From: a virus
Reading direction: 5' to 3' (one strand)
Virus record (IMG/VR): IMGVR_UViG_3300028608_000011
Coordinates: 20,008-84,007 of that record
DNA: 64,000 nucleotides
Made by a program: the position numbers and the translations under genes. The notes below the pieces were generated by a model. It ran no database searches and had not been told where the DNA came from. It was given only the letters and a program-made list of their open reading frames with translations. How positions within the stretch are numbered: position 1 is the stretch's first letter; each line of letters opens with the position of its first letter. Below are positions 25,141 through 48,830 of this stretch, piece by piece.

Positions 25141-25436
25141 TTGGCTTTCCTTTCTGCTGTGAAGAAGTCTTTGTGGATGGCCGGCCATTTACGGCGGAAC
25201 GCCTCAATCCGCCTAGCCATGAGTGACTCGTTGTGCTGGGAGTCAGCGAGCTGCTTGCGCAGCTCACGGACTTTTGCAGCGGTTTCCCGCAGGCGCTGGT
25301 TCTCCACCAGCAGTCGGGTGTTGTCGGCGAGCAGCTGATCAACATCAATCGGCTTGGCTGGTGCGGGATCCGGGAGGTTGAGAACAGCCTCCCGAAATTT
25401 TTCCCACCAGCCGCCCTTAGTCGGCGATGTTTTCAA
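25137..25436 (-). CDS. Small coiled-coil protein after polA
   Basis: About 99 aa if started at TTG 25436, inside the last codons of polA and preceded by a purine-rich GAAGAGG; no ATG is available. Helix and coiled-coil-rich (DNTRLLVENQRLRETAAKVRELRKQL) with a basic end. The frame stays open further into polA, but that part is antisense-like noise. Function unknown; coupled to the exonuclease downstream. The start is uncertain. Confidence 0.6.
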   Translation of the reverse strand: MKTSPTKGGWWEKFREAVLNLPDPAPAKPIDVDQLLADNTRLLVENQRLRETAAKVRELRKQLADSQHNESLMARRIEAFRRKWPAIHKDFFTAERKAK

Positions 25437-28400
25437 CCTCCACCTCTTCGTCTTCGTCGGCTTCGATGTAGGTGGCCTTGCGGATCGGATCGAACGGTTC
25501 CAGCACGTCCTTCTCCCAGATGTCGCGGCCTTCTTCCAGCGCCTCTGCGACAAATTTGGCCACGTTCTCTGGGCTGATGTCACGGCCCAGCTCCTGCACT
25601 CTACCCCAGTCACAGCCGATAGAAAACTCCGGTACTTGTCGAACTTTGTGCCCCGGAGGGGTTGACTCTTCCATGAACCGTCCGACCTCTTGGCAATACG
25701 CCAGAACGTCGTCCTTGTGTACCCACGACACGACTTCATCGTAGATCGGCGCGAAGAACACCATCCGCAGGCGATCCATGATCCCGCTGTCGGCGATCCG
25801 GGTCAGCACGATGCGCAACATCTGCGCGGCGCTGCCCTGGATGGTGGCGTTGGTGCCTTGGCGATGCTGCCGAGCGACCTTGCCGCCGTCGTTGCTGAAA
25901 ATGTCCGGCGTAGCGTGACGCTTGGTGCCGAACGCTGTCAGCGTGAAGCCGTTCTTCTCCATGAAGCGGGCTGTCTCTTCCTGCCACGGGCGGATCCGCC
26001 AGTACAGGGCCATGGTCTGCTCCAGCAGCTGTTTCGCTTCCTCGAATGGTGCGATGAGGTTGCGAGACAGGGTGCCAGCCCCGGCGCCGTAAGCCATGCC
26101 GAAGTTGATCGTCTTGGCCTTGCCGCGAATCGCCACCGCCAGCTTGTGCAGAGGGTGATCCTTGGTGTCCTTGGCCAGGCAGAACTCCATGTAGTCCATC
26201 TTCGCGATACCGGCGCCAGTCATACTGTGCAGGTCTTTCTCGTTGCCTGGTTCATACACCGACAGCATCACCGGGTCGTTGGCGAGGTTAGCCATGAGAC
26301 GGATCTCTTGGCCGTTGAAGTCGATCGCCACACACAAGTAGTCCTTGTTGGGTGGAATGTAGATCGACCGCATGACCTTGCCTTCGCCTTTCTTCGGCAC
26401 CTGCAGGCTGTTCGGCGCGCTCGCCGTTGGCCGGGTGGTGTCGGTGCCCGCGTCGGTAACGATCGGGTGAACGTTGCCGTCTCGGTGACGCCACATCGGG
26501 TACTTGTCGTGGAACAGGCTGCAGCGTGTGCTGGCCGACTTCACCACTCGCAGTACCTGCAGCGCTTCCCGTTGCCAGCAGTCGTTCGGCACATCGTTAG
26601 CCAGCGCGGTGAGGATCGCTTGCTCATCGGTGGATGGGCCTGCTTCCTTGATGCCGATGGACAGCCGACCTTTGCCTGGCGACTTGCCACGCAGCCGCAC
26701 CGGCACGCCAATCTTGCAATACAGCAGTTGCTGCATCTGTGCCGGGCTGCCCACGTTCAGTGGATCGCCGAACTGCACAGTCCGCGGCTCAACCCCGGCC
26801 AACCGCTGAATCAGCTCAGCCAGCTTGTCAAAAGTCTTTTCCGCGGCTTCCAGCTTGGCACCGTCGGTGTCTTCTGCCGACTCCGACTCTTCTGCTTTGC
26901 GACGTAGGTCACCCATTTTCAGGCAGCCGGCGTTCACCGCCGCGGCGATCATATCGACAACTTCGGCCTGCTCCTTGGTGAGTTTCCACTCATCGCGGAA
27001 GCCTGCCGCGCCCGCCGCGTCGAACCACTCGGTGATTGCTTTGAGCGTTACCTTCTCGATCTCAGGCAACCCCACCGCCTTGAAGGCCGGATTCAACTGC
27101 AGAGGCGTGAAGGCAAACGTCGGCATCACCGACTCTTCGCGGTACGGCGTGTACTGGCAGGCTGCTTCGACCTTCTTGCGCCACTCTGCGACCTTGGCCC
27201 CGGCCTGATCCACGTCACCATCAGCTTTCTTCTTGGCCGAGCGGAACATGTAGTCCTTCTCGGCTTCGATCAGCGACTTGGCGCCTTCCGTGATGTTGCC
27301 GGTGACGTTCTTCTCAAGGATCTCGCGAAGCTCGATCATGCCGACGCGGATGGTTTCCAGATCCTTGGTATGGATGCGCTTCTGCAGTGCCCAGTTCATG
27401 TTCGAACCAGCCACGTAGGCACGCTGCAGCACTTCGGTTGGGCGCACTGCCCACTGCTGGTAGAAGTCCCACTGCCCATCCAGTTGCAGCAACAGCTGCA
27501 GCAGGTCGTGCAGGTGGCCGGTCACCAGGCTGTCATCGGTGCCGTAGGTGAAGGTTTCATCGGCGGTCAGCTCGCACATCATCCGCACGCCTTGCCCACC
27601 GTTACCGGCGGCCAGCGTGTCGGCGAAGGAGGTCTGCTCGTAAGCCAGGTAGTTCAGCGAGATCGCCTTCAGGCCCGCTTCCATGTTTTCGTCGTAGAAC
27701 CGCTGCATCATCCGGGTGTCTTGGATGTTTTTCAGCCAGACACCGAGGTTGGTGTGCGAGACCACGCCTTCAAACAAGGCGTTGTGGGCGATCCGGGTAG
27801 TGTGCTCGCCGGCGAATTCCAGAATTTCCAGAATCACCGAGTTGTTCACGTTGGCGCTATCGCGGTGATCCACTGGAATGTAGATCACGTTCTCCAGATG
27901 TCGGCCGAACTGGAACGAGGCACCTGCCAGCTCCTGGCTGAGCATGTCGACGAAGTTGTTGCCCGCCTGAGACGCGCGGCGGAAGTCAGCGATCGGGTTC
28001 TTGTCCGAGGACTCATAGTCGAACGCGGTCTTGTCGCCTGCTTTGATCTCCTCGAAGATCGCCTCGCGCATCTCGGGCCAGTTGCTGGCGTCGACGATCA
28101 TCGGCACCGGCATCAGGTGGCTGTACTCAGCCTCCCACATATCCTCGCAGCCAACTTCCTTGAGGCAGTTGTACAGCTCGGTGGCGTTCGGCACGCGCTT
28201 GTGGATCTTCGGCTTGGTCAGCTTGCGCTGGCGAGGTTTCCAGCACAGGTCTGGCTTCAGGTTGGCCAGGCGCCAGCCCATCTTCCAGTCCGCGAAGTTC
28301 TCCTTCAACTTGATCAGGATCTTGTCGCCGGAGGCTTCAATGGTCTCGTCGAGCAGGTCGGTGTTGCCACTTTCGACGATCTCGCACAGCTGCTCCAGGC

Positions 28401-29073
28401 CGTCCACGTCGTACAGCTCCAGCAGCTTCAAGACTTTTGCCGGGCCGAGACCCGTCACGCCTTTATAGTTGTCGGAGTCGTCGCCCATGATTGACTTGGC
28501 GAAGCTGGTGAAGCGGTATGGCAGGCCCGCCAGCTTGTGCCCTTCGGGGTACACGCCGTCGGCGCCGTAGTGAGCCACGTTCTTCAGGGTGACGATGGTG
28601 TCACCGTCCACCAGCTGCAGCATGTCTTCGTCGACGGTGTGGATGTCCTTGGCACCCTTCACCATCTGGCAAACCCAGGCAATCAGGTCATCCGCTTCAA
28701 CGCCTTCAACGAACATCTGGGTCGCGCCCAGCGCCGAGAAGAAACGCTTGGCCCACGCCATCAGCAGTTTGTACTGCTCGATCTCGATGGGGCTTTTGTT
28801 CTCGTCCTTCTTTTCCTTCTGGCCTTTGTAGGCCGGGTAGAGCCCGAGTCGATAGGCTTTGCCTGCGTCGTGGGCAACCAGCATTTCACGCGGTGACGCG
28901 CCCTGTTCCAGCATTGGGCGGATGTAGCGGGTGAGGAAGTCGGCAGCCGCCGCTTCCCATTCCGCGAACTTGCGATCCAGCTTCACGCAGTGCAGGGTCT
29001 TGTCGCTGACCCCGTAATAAGCGTGTTTAACTGTGGCTCGGAAGTCGATGATTTGTAGAGGGTATTTGTTCAT
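25417..29073 (-). CDS. polA: DNA polymerase I family protein with fused 5' nuclease and 3'-5' exonuclease
   Basis: A 1,218-aa replicative polymerase. The 5' nuclease (FEN) domain spans residues about 1-300: VEGVEADDLIA, VDEDMLQL and the helix-hairpin motif MGDDSDNYKGVTGLG (about 196-210). The 3'-5' exonuclease follows: FDYES (about 351-355) and IAHNALFEG (about 428-436). A long helical insertion (about 600-850) precedes the palm. Motif A is AIDFNGQEIRL (about 916), motif B RGKAKTINFGMAYG (about 983), and motif C APIYDEVV (about 1108), where Tyr replaces the usual His of HDE. ATG 29073 has AGGAGTG upstream. The acidic tail DEDEEVEVE is unusual. Confidence 0.94.
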   Translation of the reverse strand: MNKYPLQIIDFRATVKHAYYGVSDKTLHCVKLDRKFAEWEAAAADFLTRYIRPMLEQGASPREMLVAHDAGKAYRLGLYPAYKGQKEKKDENKSPIEIEQYKLLMAWAKRFFSALGATQMFVEGVEADDLIAWVCQMVKGAKDIHTVDEDMLQLVDGDTIVTLKNVAHYGADGVYPEGHKLAGLPYRFTSFAKSIMGDDSDNYKGVTGLGPAKVLKLLELYDVDGLEQLCEIVESGNTDLLDETIEASGDKILIKLKENFADWKMGWRLANLKPDLCWKPRQRKLTKPKIHKRVPNATELYNCLKEVGCEDMWEAEYSHLMPVPMIVDASNWPEMREAIFEEIKAGDKTAFDYESSDKNPIADFRRASQAGNNFVDMLSQELAGASFQFGRHLENVIYIPVDHRDSANVNNSVILEILEFAGEHTTRIAHNALFEGVVSHTNLGVWLKNIQDTRMMQRFYDENMEAGLKAISLNYLAYEQTSFADTLAAGNGGQGVRMMCELTADETFTYGTDDSLVTGHLHDLLQLLLQLDGQWDFYQQWAVRPTEVLQRAYVAGSNMNWALQKRIHTKDLETIRVGMIELREILEKNVTGNITEGAKSLIEAEKDYMFRSAKKKADGDVDQAGAKVAEWRKKVEAACQYTPYREESVMPTFAFTPLQLNPAFKAVGLPEIEKVTLKAITEWFDAAGAAGFRDEWKLTKEQAEVVDMIAAAVNAGCLKMGDLRRKAEESESAEDTDGAKLEAAEKTFDKLAELIQRLAGVEPRTVQFGDPLNVGSPAQMQQLLYCKIGVPVRLRGKSPGKGRLSIGIKEAGPSTDEQAILTALANDVPNDCWQREALQVLRVVKSASTRCSLFHDKYPMWRHRDGNVHPIVTDAGTDTTRPTASAPNSLQVPKKGEGKVMRSIYIPPNKDYLCVAIDFNGQEIRLMANLANDPVMLSVYEPGNEKDLHSMTGAGIAKMDYMEFCLAKDTKDHPLHKLAVAIRGKAKTINFGMAYGAGAGTLSRNLIAPFEEAKQLLEQTMALYWRIRPWQEETARFMEKNGFTLTAFGTKRHATPDIFSNDGGKVARQHRQGTNATIQGSAAQMLRIVLTRIADSGIMDRLRMVFFAPIYDEVVSWVHKDDVLAYCQEVGRFMEESTPPGHKVRQVPEFSIGCDWGRVQELGRDISPENVAKFVAEALEEGRDIWEKDVLEPFDPIRKATYIEADEDEEVEVENIAD

Positions 29074-29075
29074 GG

Positions 29076-29351
29076 TCACTCCTGAATGAAGAGGGCGTGC
29101 AGTACGGACCCTCCCCCTTGGAGCTGGCACGTACCCAGGTTGCAGTAGTTCTTGCTTGGGTCGAGGTCTTCGCCGGTTACCGCGACATAGATTTCGGCTG
29201 GGACAGTGCGCTGTGTATCGTCTACCAGTGTCCACAGCTGCAACGGCTCCACTTGCCCTGCCTGATGCTGAACTGTGGTATCAGCCGACAGGCCGCCGGG
29301 GACGTGGATAACATTCATGCCTACATTCAGACCGTACTTGAGCATCTTCAT
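29076..29351 (-). CDS. DUF7352-like small protein
   Basis: A 91-aa protein, resembling small phage proteins that start MK-x-(L/W)KY and contain a V-x-HQ-G-x-EPLQLW-(T/A)-LVDD segment followed by a G(T)CQL-x-GG-x-LHAL end. Function unknown. ATG 29351 was chosen; two bases separate its stop from the polA start, so it is made from the same message as the polymerase. Confidence 0.8.
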   Translation of the reverse strand: MKMLKYGLNVGMNVIHVPGGLSADTTVQHQAGQVEPLQLWTLVDDTQRTVPAEIYVAVTGEDLDPSKNYCNLGTCQLQGGGSVLHALFIQE

Positions 29352-39860: not shown

Positions 39861-40670
39861 TTAGTCAGGGATGCCTGTCAGCAGTAGGGCACTGGCACGC
39901 TGCACCAGCTTTGGATCCGCCAGCTGCTTGACGTTGGGCTTGCGCTCGAGGAACTCAGCCGGCAGGTATTGCACCGCGTCAGGGAACTGGGCTTCCAGGT
40001 GCTTCAGGGTGCGAATCGGTGCGAGGATCTTGGTCAGGTCTTCGTACAGTTCGCCGGCAGCGGTGATCACCGCGAAGTACGCCTGCATCAGCCGGTCTGC
40101 CTGAACGCTAAGGGAATAGGCTTCAACGGAGTAGGGCAGGCGGTACTGATCGTCCTTCTTCACCTCGACTTCTGGGTGAAATATTTTGCCCAGGCCCGGG
40201 ATGCTGGGGAGATCCGCGTGGCTGCACTTCCAGCTGTAGTGGAAGTCGTAGCTACCGGTGTACTTGTTTGTGAAGTTGAGGAAGCTGCTCCACTCCTGCT
40301 CCACGGCTTCACGCACCAGCTGCCATTTCTGCATATCTTTTTCGCGTATTTTGCAGACTCCCCGGCCTTCGTAACTGAGGCCGACCTTGCCCACCGCCGT
40401 GCTCTCGGTGGTGTTGAACTTGTCGTTCGGCTTGACCGTTATGACGTCGATGTTGCCCTTCAGGCTGCTGAAGATGCCGTCCTGAATCAACGGGGCCCAG
40501 CGGCTCTGTGGCACCTCGGGGATCTTCAGCGAGATCTGCTTGGCGAACAGCTGGCGCCAGAGTTTGTCCAGCGCTCGAGCGGCCTTGGTGGTGCTGGCTG
40601 CCTGGCGCTTGGAGGCTTGACGCAGCAATGACACGATCAGGTCGCGTTTGACTTCGTTGGTGATGTTCAT
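39861..40670 (-). CDS. Nmad5-like putative nucleotide-modification-associated protein
   Basis: A 269-aa protein. The start MNITNEVKRDLIVSLLRQA followed by a helical basic segment and LDKLWRQLF resembles the Nmad5 family (predicted DNA-modification-associated proteins of phages), a low-certainty recognition by eye. The middle is beta-rich (TVGKVGLSYEGRGVC), and the C-terminal third is helical (LYEDLTKILAPIRTLKHLE). Coupled by ATGA to the PolA-fragment gene upstream. Confidence 0.75.
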   Translation of the reverse strand: MNITNEVKRDLIVSLLRQASKRQAASTTKAARALDKLWRQLFAKQISLKIPEVPQSRWAPLIQDGIFSSLKGNIDVITVKPNDKFNTTESTAVGKVGLSYEGRGVCKIREKDMQKWQLVREAVEQEWSSFLNFTNKYTGSYDFHYSWKCSHADLPSIPGLGKIFHPEVEVKKDDQYRLPYSVEAYSLSVQADRLMQAYFAVITAAGELYEDLTKILAPIRTLKHLEAQFPDAVQYLPAEFLERKPNVKQLADPKLVQRASALLLTGIPD

Positions 40671-41032
40671 GCTTTACCGCCGTAAATGTTGTTGAAGTGT
40701 TTGAGGATGAGCGGGTACAGCGCTCCGGGTTCTTCGATCTCCAGATCCTTGCGAATCTGTTCGCACTCGGCCTCTGTCCAGATGGCCATGAGTGCGGCCT
40801 CGCTCGGCACCTCCCACATGGCGCCGGGCGTGTAGAGCATCGTGAAGTTCAACGTCTTCCCTACGTTGCTGCGCTGTCGCTTGCAGACCTTGCTGTAGGG
40901 TAGGCCGAGGATCACAGCCGCCGTGATGGTGTGGATGTCCAGCAGCTTTGACGATTTGTACAGCTCCCCGGAGCTGGCCAGCCGCCGCTCGATAGCGGCG
41001 TAATCGACTTCGTGTTGGATCGGCTTGATCAT
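40667..41032 (-). CDS. Stand-alone fragment of a PolA palm/fingers domain
   Basis: A 121-aa protein whose residues 9-75 read like the active-site core of family A DNA polymerases: motif A VDYAAIERRLAS (9-20), DIHTITAA (32-39), GLPYSKV (43-49), then motif B QRSNVGKTLNFTMLY (53-67). In PolI these elements are separated by the same distances. Motif C, thumb and exonuclease domains are absent. It is not a broken end of the full polymerase at 25417, whose motifs differ. ATG with GAGG upstream, ATGA overlap with both neighbours, so it looks like a maintained gene. Catalysis alone is unlikely; a nucleotide- or polymerase-interacting role is possible. Confidence 0.85.
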   Translation of the reverse strand: MIKPIQHEVDYAAIERRLASSGELYKSSKLLDIHTITAAVILGLPYSKVCKRQRSNVGKTLNFTMLYTPGAMWEVPSEAALMAIWTEAECEQIRKDLEIEEPGALYPLILKHFNNIYGGKA

Positions 41033-41460
41033 TTATGGGCCTCGGGGTCTTTGATGTGCTTGTCGAACAATTTCTTGTGACGACGAGCAAAGCGGGCGGT
41101 GTGGGCGATGGCATACAACAGGGCCAGCGACAGCACGATAGGGTAAAAATTTACGGTGACGCAGATAGCCATCGGAATAGCCCCGACAACTACACACGAT
41201 CGCGCAAGCAGGTCGGCGCCGCGAATATCCTCCTTGCCTTCCTTCTGGAATCGCTCGTAGGAGTCGCTGTACTCGTAGCCGCACAGCGTGCCGATCAACG
41301 TCATCATCGGCCATGGGCCTTCAGGCTTGCGGTCATCTACCCATAACAGCGCGGTTTTCACCGCCTCTGTGGCTGCCGAGAGGGTGAAGAACAGCGCGGC
41401 CATTGCCACGCCCATCAGGATCATGGCGAGGAACATTCTTTCCGGTGGTAGATCAGTCAC
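41029..41460 (-). CDS. Membrane protein of unknown function
   Basis: A 143-aa protein with at least three hydrophobic segments (about 9-30, 88-108 and 110-128) and a basic C-terminus (RFARRHKKLFDKHIKD). GTG 41460 overlaps the upstream stop as GTGA with AAGGAG at good spacing; upstream in-frame sequence belongs to the neighbouring gene. Inner-membrane location predicted; possibly envelope or exclusion function. Confidence 0.75.
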   Translation of the reverse strand: MTDLPPERMFLAMILMGVAMAALFFTLSAATEAVKTALLWVDDRKPEGPWPMMTLIGTLCGYEYSDSYERFQKEGKEDIRGADLLARSCVVVGAIPMAICVTVNFYPIVLSLALLYAIAHTARFARRHKKLFDKHIKDPEAHK

Positions 41461-41879
41461 TTTAGGTACTCCTTTCTGATTCGCCGAAGCGAGGTTGCAT
41501 GGCTCAAGCCCTTCCAGGCGTAGAGCCTGGCCGAGCCGTCTGCCAAGAAGTGGATCTGCTCCGTCCAGCTGTAGGTGTAGGCACCTGACAGGCTCAGCGA
41601 CTGGTCGGCACGTTTGGCCAGCGCCAGACGAGTTTCTTCGCCGGTGCCGGCCGCAAACAGTTCGAATATTCCGCGCTGCGCCGCGGGGGTCAGCATCACG
41701 GAGCAAAAGCGCGGGTCTTTGGCAAATTCAAGCAGCTGGTCGTAGGGGATGAACTTCTCCTTTTCCCAGCGCTTTATGAATTTTTCCAATGCCTTGCGTG
41801 AACTTCTTGTAGCTGTTTCAAGCAGCGACTGGCCCGGACGTGCCGGCCAGGTAGGCTGCAATATCGTGTTGACGTCCAC
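41457..41879 (-). CDS. Protein of unknown function
   Basis: About 140 aa from GTG 41879 (GAGGAG seven bases upstream), which overlaps the upstream gene by 62 bases. Helical, basic (RSSRKALEKFIKRWEKEKF), with a C-terminal aromatic segment SGAYTYSWTEQIHFL and a basic end. No family recognised. Start uncertain: a TTG nearby is also possible. Confidence 0.65.
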   Translation of the reverse strand: MDVNTILQPTWPARPGQSLLETATRSSRKALEKFIKRWEKEKFIPYDQLLEFAKDPRFCSVMLTPAAQRGIFELFAAGTGEETRLALAKRADQSLSLSGAYTYSWTEQIHFLADGSARLYAWKGLSHATSLRRIRKEYLK

Positions 41880-46212: not shown

Positions 46213-46682
46213 GCGTCACCGCCTTTCGCTTCAACTGTCATTTCGAAACCCACGAACACCGCGCCGCTGGCGTCCATCGGCCCGCCGCTACCCTCCGCGG
46301 TGTGCTGATTGGCAAAGCCGGCCAGGTGATCCTCGAGGGCAGCCTTGGCTGCCTCGATGTTCTTGCCTTCTACGTTCACCTTGCCTACGAAGCGCAGGCT
46401 GTAGCTCAGGTGCTGCACACCCGCCACAGACGCATCGGGCTGGCAGGTGGGTTGGGCAACCACCTTCCAAGCCACGTTGTGGCCTGGCAGATCGCCCAGC
46501 ATGCAGTTGCTGGCGCAGTTGCCGTGGGGGTCAACCTGAATAGGGCCGCAGCCCTCGCAGATTGTGGATACGGCCAGCCCTTTATCCCAGCTCTCGTGAG
46601 AGGTAAGGCCCGCGAGGTCATTTTGTTCAGCCGCTTCTGGGCCGAACATGTCTTCCGTGCACTTCTTGCAAAAGTCAGCCAT
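46197..46682 (-). CDS. Zinc-ribbon protein
   Basis: A 161-aa protein with an N-terminal Cys-rich region: DFCKKCTEDMFG (4-15), then CEGCGPIQVDPHGNCASNC (about 42-60), a pattern common in small phage zinc proteins. The C-terminal half is a beta-alpha unit (LSYSLRFVGKVNVEGKNIEAAKAAL). It overlaps the methyltransferase stop by TAATG, so it is made along with that enzyme. Confidence 0.8.
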   Translation of the reverse strand: MADFCKKCTEDMFGPEAAEQNDLAGLTSHESWDKGLAVSTICEGCGPIQVDPHGNCASNCMLGDLPGHNVAWKVVAQPTCQPDASVAGVQHLSYSLRFVGKVNVEGKNIEAAKAALEDHLAGFANQHTAEGSGGPMDASGAVFVGFEMTVEAKGGDACESV

Positions 46683-48790
46683 TACGCGGTCTCCGCCATT
46701 TTGTTGTCCAGCGCCCAGCGCGGGATGTTTGCTGCTACCAGTGCCCGAGCCAATCCCGGAGGCACCGAGTTGCCTACCATGCGCACCTGTGCATGCTTGG
46801 CCAGTTTCTTGCCCATCACCACCTCGTGCTGGTAATCAGCCGGGAAGCCTTGGCAGCGGTACAGCTCGTGCGGCTCCAGCATTCGCATGCCGATGTCGAC
46901 GATCTGGTAGTCCTGCCCGTGGATGGTGACGATGCCAAAGCGCGCCTTGGCGGTGATGGTGTCCAGCGGCTCATCGCAGCTGACTGCGCCGCCGGTGCCG
47001 TAGAACTTGATTAGGAAGGCCTGCACCTCGGCAAAGTGATTGCCCTGCGCAGCGATCGCATCCAGCGGGCGGTCAAGTGACTGACCGTGCTGGCAGGTGC
47101 CTTTGAGTTTCACCAAGCTGCTGGCGACCAGCGCCGACTTGCCCCCGCCACCGGCGGTGATTGCACCCAGCGGCTCATCGGCGCCGTGGCCGACGCTGTT
47201 ACCGAAGTCGCGCTGGATATGCGCAACGTCGATGGCCTCGTTCAGATCCTGCACCGCATCGATCGGCTCCAGCGCGGCGGTCATCACCGAGTTGTGATCC
47301 TTGGAGGTGATCGTCGGCAGGGGTTTGTCCAGGTGCTGGCCGACCACACCAGTGTAATGCTTGAGCAGCGCGGCAACCTGAATGTGCCGGGCCTTGCTGG
47401 TGACCACTGACAGGGGTTCGTCGAAGCCTTTGGAGGTGTCGCCGCTGCTCTGGTGGTCGATGGTGGTGATGCAGCCCAGTTGAATCGGCTGCAGCTGGGC
47501 TTCCAGCACGCCAAGGGCGTGCGGTGCCCCTGCTGGCCGTGCTGCGCCGCCCCCGGCGGTGATCACCGGCAGAGGGGCATTGCAGCTGGCGCCGCCGGAA
47601 TCACCGCGGAACTTCATGATGGCTGCGGCGGACTGCAGTTCGGCTTCCACCACTGCAAATCGGGTGGCACCCGCCATGACGGTGTCCAGCGGCGCGTCAG
47701 CGCTCTGGCCGACGCTGTTCTGGTTGAACTTGCTCAGCGACACGGCCGTCAGCGCGGTGCCCAGCTTGCTGGTGAGGGTCTGCAGCGGCTCCTCCAGCGA
47801 CTGCCCGCGGAACTGGTCGTAGGCGTGGTTTGTCTTCACGAGGAAGGCGTCGTCACCGGCGCCGATCACGAACTTCTCGATGCCCTTGAAGATTCGCGCC
47901 AGTGTCTTGTCGGCCAGCGGCTTCTTGCGGTCGAAGATAGACGGGCACGGCAGGCTGAAGTCCAAGTTCTCGCCGGCGGTCTTCCACGGCTGCAACTTGC
48001 CCGGGTGGGCCAGGGCCAGCTTCTTCGGTGCGTGGGTAGGTTCCGGCCAGATGATTGGCAGCCCGTCCTTGCGGGCCATCAGGAAGAAGCGGTTGCGGGT
48101 GGTGGGGTCGCCGTAGTCGCAGGCGTTCAGGCCTTTCTCTTTCCACTCGACGGTGTAGCCAGCGGCGCGCAGCTGCTTGATGAACTGCTTGAAGATGCTG
48201 CCCGAACGCTTCTTGTCCGGCACCAGCGCCTGCTCCCAGTAGGGCACGTACTCGCCGGGCTCGCTGACCACTTCGTTCATCACAGGGTCGCCGTTCTTGT
48301 CCTTCTTTTTGTCATCGGCAACCAGTTTGATGACGCGGCCGGTCTTCTTGCAGCGCTTGGCTATGAGAGGGCCCCACGTCATGAATTCCTTCACGTTTTC
48401 CATGAAGAGCATGGCCATGTCGGACTGGCCGATCCACTTCTTGACGATCCAGGCCAGGCCGCGGATCGCTTTCTTCACCGGCTTCCCGCCCTTGGCCACG
48501 CTGAAGTGGGTGCAGTCAGGGCTGAACCAGCCCATCAAGGCTGGCTCGCCGTTCAACGCCGAGAGGATGTCGATGTCCCAGACCGACTCGTTGTAGTGCT
48601 TCGTCTCTGGGTGGTTCTGCTCGTGCATCATCAGCGCTTCGGCGTTGTGATTCACGGCGATGTCTGGGGAGCGGCCATTGGCCTGGGCGATGCCGGTGGA
48701 AGCACCGCCGCCACCTGCGAAGTTGTCGACGACCTTGCCGCCTATCCAGCGATACCCGGCGGGCACCGGGTAACTGTTGATGTCTCGCAT
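46682..48790 (-). CDS. DNA (cytosine-5) methyltransferase with repeat array
   Basis: A 702-aa C5 methyltransferase, transferring a methyl group from SAM to cytosine in DNA. Motif I NFAGGGGAS (about 23-31), motif IV SPDCTHFS with the catalytic Cys93, motif VI FMENV (about 130), motif VIII region DPTTRNRFFL (about 235) and motif X MVGNSVPPG near the C-terminus. Between about 325 and 640, where target recognition is expected, there are about eight repeats of about 36 aa built around (D/E)(E/K/A)PL-x-(T/A)(I/V)T. ATG 48790 has AAGGA at good spacing. Probably protects phage DNA from host restriction; no partner nuclease is adjacent. Confidence 0.92.
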   Translation of the reverse strand: MRDINSYPVPAGYRWIGGKVVDNFAGGGGASTGIAQANGRSPDIAVNHNAEALMMHEQNHPETKHYNESVWDIDILSALNGEPALMGWFSPDCTHFSVAKGGKPVKKAIRGLAWIVKKWIGQSDMAMLFMENVKEFMTWGPLIAKRCKKTGRVIKLVADDKKKDKNGDPVMNEVVSEPGEYVPYWEQALVPDKKRSGSIFKQFIKQLRAAGYTVEWKEKGLNACDYGDPTTRNRFFLMARKDGLPIIWPEPTHAPKKLALAHPGKLQPWKTAGENLDFSLPCPSIFDRKKPLADKTLARIFKGIEKFVIGAGDDAFLVKTNHAYDQFRGQSLEEPLQTLTSKLGTALTAVSLSKFNQNSVGQSADAPLDTVMAGATRFAVVEAELQSAAAIMKFRGDSGGASCNAPLPVITAGGGAARPAGAPHALGVLEAQLQPIQLGCITTIDHQSSGDTSKGFDEPLSVVTSKARHIQVAALLKHYTGVVGQHLDKPLPTITSKDHNSVMTAALEPIDAVQDLNEAIDVAHIQRDFGNSVGHGADEPLGAITAGGGGKSALVASSLVKLKGTCQHGQSLDRPLDAIAAQGNHFAEVQAFLIKFYGTGGAVSCDEPLDTITAKARFGIVTIHGQDYQIVDIGMRMLEPHELYRCQGFPADYQHEVVMGKKLAKHAQVRMVGNSVPPGLARALVAANIPRWALDNKMAETA

Positions 48791-48830
48791 CGTATATCCT
48801 TGAGACGCCACTGGGCGTCCTTGTCGTGGT
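48790..48830. repeat. Inverted repeat GACGCC-CAGT-GGCGTC in the methyltransferase leader
   Basis: A perfect 6-base-arm hairpin (48808-48823) lies about 18 bases upstream of the methyltransferase ATG, just before its Shine-Dalgarno. It could regulate translation or serve as a weak terminator for the gene before it. No U-tract. Confidence 0.4.

Follow-up and report, generated by a model that had tools for sequence, protein, structure and literature searches.

The closest described counterparts of the protein analysed here are phage proteins known from their annotations; searches of the open literature found no functional description of stand-alone fingers proteins. The gp12 protein of phiKMV is labelled 'putative DNA binding protein' and, in RefSeq, 'DNA polymerase', and PHROG_30466 and its relatives in VHS1-like Vibrio phages and Vibrio phage KarBoss are often annotated as 'putative/partial DNA polymerase I'. 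We compare them with a 121-aa protein encoded in a 64,000-nucleotide stretch (the window), which belongs to a virus record of 84 kb whose relatives include the Pseudomonas phages PMBT3 and Lana. Its residues 9-70 align with about 702-769 of the Klenow fragment of DNA polymerase I (family A; PF00476, TIGR00593), from motif A to motif B, and the dNTP-contacting residues of this stretch are present. The protein differs from Pol I in lacking motif C, the thumb, the exonuclease and the remaining palm, in its sub-cut-off Pfam score, in having no glycine after the motif B tyrosine and in being accompanied by a complete PolA in the same genome. With gp12 of phiKMV and LUZ19 it shares maintenance as a phage protein, the fingers hairpin of canonical PolA (residues 5-40 of gp12) and a full PolA in the genome; phiKMV gp12 itself also has a motif A-like stretch. 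However, the gp12 proteins are 225-316 aa long, carry the hairpin before motif A, have a C-terminal hydrophobic membrane-type segment and are not positional orthologues of the 121-aa gene. PHROG_30466 and its relatives have motif A and then the fingers hairpin, as here, but add a C-terminal zinc ribbon and, in KarBoss, an N-terminal one too. Judged from sequence comparison, the 121-aa protein may best be explained as a non-catalytic fingers module that acts as a nucleotide-binding accessory in replication (probability about 0.38).

The gene and its borders are laid out as follows.
40667-41032, minus strand: stand-alone PolA motif A and fingers gene, 121 aa (codons 40670-41032, stop TGA 40667-40669).
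41033-41045, minus strand: candidate ribosome-binding site, GAGG 7 nt 5' of the ATG, within the final part of the upstream gene.
41029-41475, minus strand: membrane-type protein, upstream; its stop and the start of the 121-aa gene overlap.
40976-41011, minus strand: motif A stretch, residues 8-19 (EVDYAAIERRLA), from alignments; low pLDDT in the model.
40823-40939, minus strand: N/O-helix hairpin, residues 32-70 (DIHTITAA...QRSNVGKTLNFTMLYTPG), from alignments and the model.

The open reading frame is intact from its ATG to its TGA. The initial annotation reported a Shine-Dalgarno sequence and ATGA overlaps on both sides, and these are present: GAGG stands 7 nt before the ATG, the TGA of the upstream gene (41029-41031) overlaps the ATG (41030-41032), and the TGA (40667-40669) overlaps the ATG of the next gene (40668-40670). 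The upstream membrane-type protein has a similar C-terminus in PMBT3, and Lana has a different upstream gene. The 121-aa protein contains VDYAAIERRLAS, LLDIHTITAA, GLPYSKV and QRSNVGKTLNFTMLYTPG, and every motif first quoted for it is found at 40667-41032 on the minus strand. In the alignments D10 corresponds to E. coli D705 and E15 to E710, and the Klenow alignment pairs H34 with H734, R54 with R754, K59 with K758, F63 with F762 and Y67 with Y766. The Asp and Glu of motif A and the Arg, Lys, Phe and Tyr of motif B are thus present in the protein and its orthologues, and the equivalents of D705, E710, H734, R754, K758, F762 and Y766 are invariant in six of six orthologues. Five of the six, and also two full phage polymerases (L009, L010), carry an additional residue between the equivalents of R754 and K758.

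Pfam DNA_pol_A matches residues 9-70 with E=2e-5 and 24.1 bits, below the curated cut-off of 34.3 bits, and the match covers positions 157-222 of the 381 of PF00476. NCBIfam matches fall on the same Pol I stretch. A profile built from the six stand-alone orthologues only finds E. coli Klenow with E=4.4e-6, and compared with a PolA profile it reaches 97.2% probability (E=2.9e-11), the 70 aligned columns beginning at motif A and ending shortly after motif B. Because of the Pfam, Klenow and profile-profile matches, the similarity to PolA goes beyond chance; the identity of the protein as PolA fingers is solid. An AlphaFold2 model has a pLDDT of 77 and a pTM of 0.68, with pLDDT 93-95 over residues 31-60 and a poor motif A strand. 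The 50 PDB matches listed for the model are all family A polymerases, but because their E-values are 0.1 or worse and their TM-scores 0.28-0.37, the whole chain superposes poorly on the fingers; of the superposition on PolA fingers that the initial annotation asked about, the kind of nearest match agrees and the strength of the match does not. Among viral structure models the PMBT3 orthologue is the best match, and the list also holds a CX5 protein of 60 aa (35 residues at 0.8 A) and proteins of Aci02-2, fBenAci002 and phiNFS, most of these E-values being greater than 1 and the matches pointers only. The protein ends after the fingers, so that the earlier statements that motif C and the thumb are missing and that it is unlikely to be a polymerase itself both stand: because it has no motif C, it cannot polymerise.

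Two further genes bear on whether the missing parts are supplied from elsewhere.
25417-29235, minus strand: complete PolA with 5'-3' exonuclease, 3'-5' exonuclease and motifs A, B and C (Pfam, PF00476 search).
39861-40670, minus strand: downstream neighbour of 269 aa, PHROG_15487, linked by position; its functional tie is putative.

The 84-kb record, which is possibly incomplete, holds two PF00476 matches, the 121-aa gene and the complete PolA, and no second gene with motif C but without motifs A and B was found in it. Because the phage's own PolA is complete and the record holds no other PolA piece, the 121-aa gene is not half of a split polymerase. The PolA has all its domains and motifs, and its similarity to the 121-aa protein is weak, in agreement with the early description of it as complete and different. 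A duplicate of the own PolA is rejected, since the Lana group scores z 1.6-6.7 against its own PolA and 12.5-16.5 against E. coli Pol I. The PolA frame as read from a GTG start gives 1272 aa; because the orthologues start about 54 residues later (MNKYPLQIIDFRA...), the true start is probably at about 29073.

That the 269-aa neighbour provides the palm, motif C and thumb is nevertheless suggested by two facts: the genes are adjacent and overlapping, and the neighbour is labelled DNA polymerase by RefSeq and PHROG (in RefSeq for Lana, PMBT3, KPP25 and phiR18). However, the profile of the neighbour matches the PolA profile with a probability of 0.2%, against 97.2% for the fragment, and this comparison rejects the pairing. 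The neighbour has no match in Pfam (E<=1), NCBIfam or PDB, its relatives occur in phages without the fragment, and its structure model (pLDDT 42) is uninformative and unusable here. A polymerase split between these two genes is therefore extremely improbable. The initial annotation also called a neighbour 'Nmad5-like'; this is not supported, as the 269-aa gene has none of the matches just listed and the nearby genes scanned gave no Nmad5 match. A weak PADLOC match of the 269-aa protein to CARF (E=0.004) covers residues 24-105. Elsewhere in the window, 46682-48811 encodes a 709-aa C5-cytosine methyltransferase whose Pfam match is split into three stretches, which suggests an insertion inside the protein.

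Orthologues of the 121-aa gene stand alone at the same position in Lana, PMBT3 and three IMG/VR contigs, with lengths of 120-127 aa. No prophage or bacterial copies were found in a search of genome contigs. In the related phage UAntarctica the surrounding block is kept and the single PF00476 match is the full PolA, and for this reason the 121-aa gene is regarded as an accessory. The frame is under purifying selection: codon models of the whole gene prefer a free omega to omega=1 with 2dlnL of about 249, and omega=1 is rejected separately for the N-terminal part (2dlnL about 61), the core (135) and the C-terminal part (70). The initial description of a maintained gene is thereby supported, and in place of the always degenerate or frameshifted homologues that it named as the opposite case, all six orthologues are intact. 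These data weigh on the idea that the gene is left over from a polymerase gene that was lost or captured and that it drifts without function. It covers just one piece of the enzyme, UAntarctica lost or never had the gene, and the pairwise NG86 estimates of omega (0.29-0.92) are only moderately low, all of which would fit such a remnant. However, drift is hard to reconcile with six intact orthologues out of six, with the rejection of omega=1 in every part, with gene overlaps like those of translational coupling and with the retention of similarly bordered pieces in about 150 records. We consider a drifting remnant improbable.

Searches from the 121-aa protein and its first relatives reach stand-alone fingers in six further phage settings.
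phiKMV gp12 and relatives: 94 Pseudomonas records; phiKMV gp12 itself (L031:1501-2310; also L025:3489-4298) has the fingers hairpin, a permuted motif A-like stretch and a membrane-type segment.
Friunavirus proteins: 59 aa, 33 Acinetobacter records.
Saclayvirus proteins: 55-66 aa, 20 Acinetobacter records.
Corkvirinae proteins (CX5/PPWS2): 60 aa, 4 records.
VHS1-like Vibrio phage proteins: 122-154 aa, with a C-terminal zinc ribbon.
Vibrio phage KarBoss protein: 284 aa (L016:2853-3707), zinc ribbons at both ends and degenerate PolA fingers between them.

The initial annotation proposed that the same short architecture be sought in other phages; it is found in the Lana/PMBT3 group, and the other settings had been missed. 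The 55-66-aa proteins of Saclayvirus, Friunavirus and Corkvirinae share the free-standing N/O hairpin of canonical PolA with the 121-aa protein but consist of the hairpin and little else; only CX5/PPWS2 have a remnant of motif A. A PF00476 search of 23 records, in which UAntarctica, KPP25 and phCDa served as contrasts without a stand-alone, finds a full PolA in 23 of 23, including all 20 carriers. The carriers have a second, short match at positions of about 148-228 that never includes motif C; that of LV6 was too weak in this search and is visible in another. The 121-aa protein shares the features by which we propose to group stand-alones, namely a short ORF, a PolA match to motifs A and B only and a full PolA alongside. 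Searches of IMG/VR with single-protein patterns added few new families, and Kc259 and BvP were rejected as further small cases because their polymerase genes are long.

Of the 20 stand-alones compared, 19 retain R754, 19 retain K758 and all 20 retain Y766, residues that polymerases keep as well. In contrast, only 4 of the 20 have G767, which all 98 full PolAs carry, and 1 has G763, which is present in 90 of the 98. Because the compared stand-alones are not independent of each other, Fisher values for these counts are only a guide. By lineage, the Lana group, the Vibrio phages, phiKMV gp12 and Aci05 have lost G767; CX5/PPWS2, IME200 and KissB retain it. The position of H734 is Tyr in phiKMV gp12 and IME200, and IME200 has Q and R at R754 and K758. 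In this residue pattern, the stand-alones lack the templating face and retain the triphosphate-contact residues. Polymerase fingers contact the template, and a role as a nucleic-acid-binding adaptor, with the O-helix hairpin as the DNA-binding element, could also draw on the label 'putative DNA binding protein' of phiKMV gp12, putative as that label is, and on the zinc ribbons that follow the hairpin in Vibrio phages. However, it is the template-side glycines of the O-helix that are mostly lost, and we regard such an adaptor as improbable. Because the triphosphate contacts are kept and the templating glycines lost, the likeliest role seems to be that of a non-catalytic accessory which binds nucleotides or phosphate, although the kept residues may be structural instead.

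In phiKMV gp12, motif A (DYADLEARVAASL) follows the fingers in permuted order, and none of 2000 shuffles is as good; it is as if both pocket halves mattered to the protein. Permutation throughout the phiKMV-like phages is rejected, as the divergent MPK7 and JB10 have no significant motif A. Motif A is likewise absent or not significant in IME200, KissB, Aci05, LV6 and KarBoss, and because of these cases the full pocket is not general.

The stand-alones, all but LV6, score z of about 10-28 against E. coli Pol I and mostly less than 3 against the PolA of their own phage, the exceptions being the protein of the window (6.7) and VHS1 (9.4). They thus resemble canonical Pol I fingers and mostly hardly their own phage's PolA, a comparison biased towards canonical fingers because the searches began from canonical-type queries. 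On the best tree of the short segment that all share, 6 changes of state are required (bootstrap 4-6), and a single clade for all seven settings, with a p-AU of 0.105 on this segment, is not rejected; the counterparts in the six other settings look independent. Among bacterial PolAs, those of the host group are not more similar to the stand-alones than the others are. An approximate Pseudomonas-like sequence served as bait for the bacterial PolAs and gave 80 PolA loci with a top identity of 94%; a Taq row in the comparison is not relied on. Some Pseudomonas PolA fingers (L082, L085, L088, L089, L094, L101-L103, L114, L117) are 73-80% identical to the bait, and other Pseudomonas PolAs match it at 90% or more; the former are possibly a second polA copy.

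These relationships bear on two further explanations. A mimic or decoy would imitate canonical Pol I fingers, keep a host factor or defence protein with recognition of such fingers occupied and spare the divergent PolA of the phage. This main rival gains from the canonical short-loop fingers in seven of seven settings with divergent own PolAs, from the position of the Autographiviridae genes among small early or early-middle genes, and from short proteins, variable context and a patchy distribution (absent in UAntarctica). However, the lack of preference for the host group's PolA gives no sign of host-specific mimicry, which is rejected; the canonical-type queries bias the search to such fingers; and the fragment has no PADLOC match, so that its membership in a defence system is also rejected. 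To our knowledge, no host factor binds Pol I fingers. Mimicry is therefore unlikely. Alternatively, the fragment may bind host Pol I or phage PolA and inhibit or modulate it. Consistently, carriers always have a full PolA, and the Lana-group gene lies in one strand block with primase, helicase and PolA. However, the fragment is not derived from its own phage's fingers, the co-occurrence may simply arise because it was PolA phages that were found, and we know of no fingers dimer contacts in PolA structures. Regulation of a polymerase seems less probable than mimicry.

We therefore rank the roles as nucleotide accessory, mimic or decoy, polymerase regulator, remnant and DNA-binding adaptor; the nucleotide-sensing, polymerase-binding or DNA-modification role suggested in the initial annotation is putative. 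In the preferred reading, the product of the gene would be the fingers of a canonical, Pol I-type family A polymerase as a free-standing module without catalytic activity, and the motif A strand and N/O-helix hairpin would form the half of the pocket that grips the incoming dNTP. A nucleoside triphosphate, or some other ligand rich in phosphate, may still bind in the retained pocket. The protein may act, by itself or docked on a larger protein, as a nucleotide-responsive accessory when the phage replicates its DNA; in other phages a zinc ribbon or a C-terminal membrane-type segment comes after the module. The low-confidence model of motif A, the poor global match to PolA, the restricted occurrence of motif A and the residue replacements in phiKMV gp12 and IME200 count against this reading.

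The recurrence of stand-alone PolA fingers beside a full PolA in unrelated phages is the point of interest. It suggests that stand-alone fingers are a recurring class, so far undescribed, with phiKMV gp12 among its members. At somewhat less than even odds, phages have repeatedly domesticated canonical Pol I fingers as free-standing proteins that bind nucleotides or a host partner outside polymerisation, as sensors or as decoys in takeover or counter-defence. If true, this would account for small phage genes labelled 'DNA polymerase', 'DNA-binding protein' or 'hypothetical' and correct a misleading annotation in well over 100 records. The residue pattern, with triphosphate contacts kept and templating glycines lost, is a concrete prediction of the bound ligand, and a clear test would be possible in the easy model phages phiKMV and LUZ19. 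A piece of a well-known enzyme would then have a second, maintained, non-enzyme life in phages.
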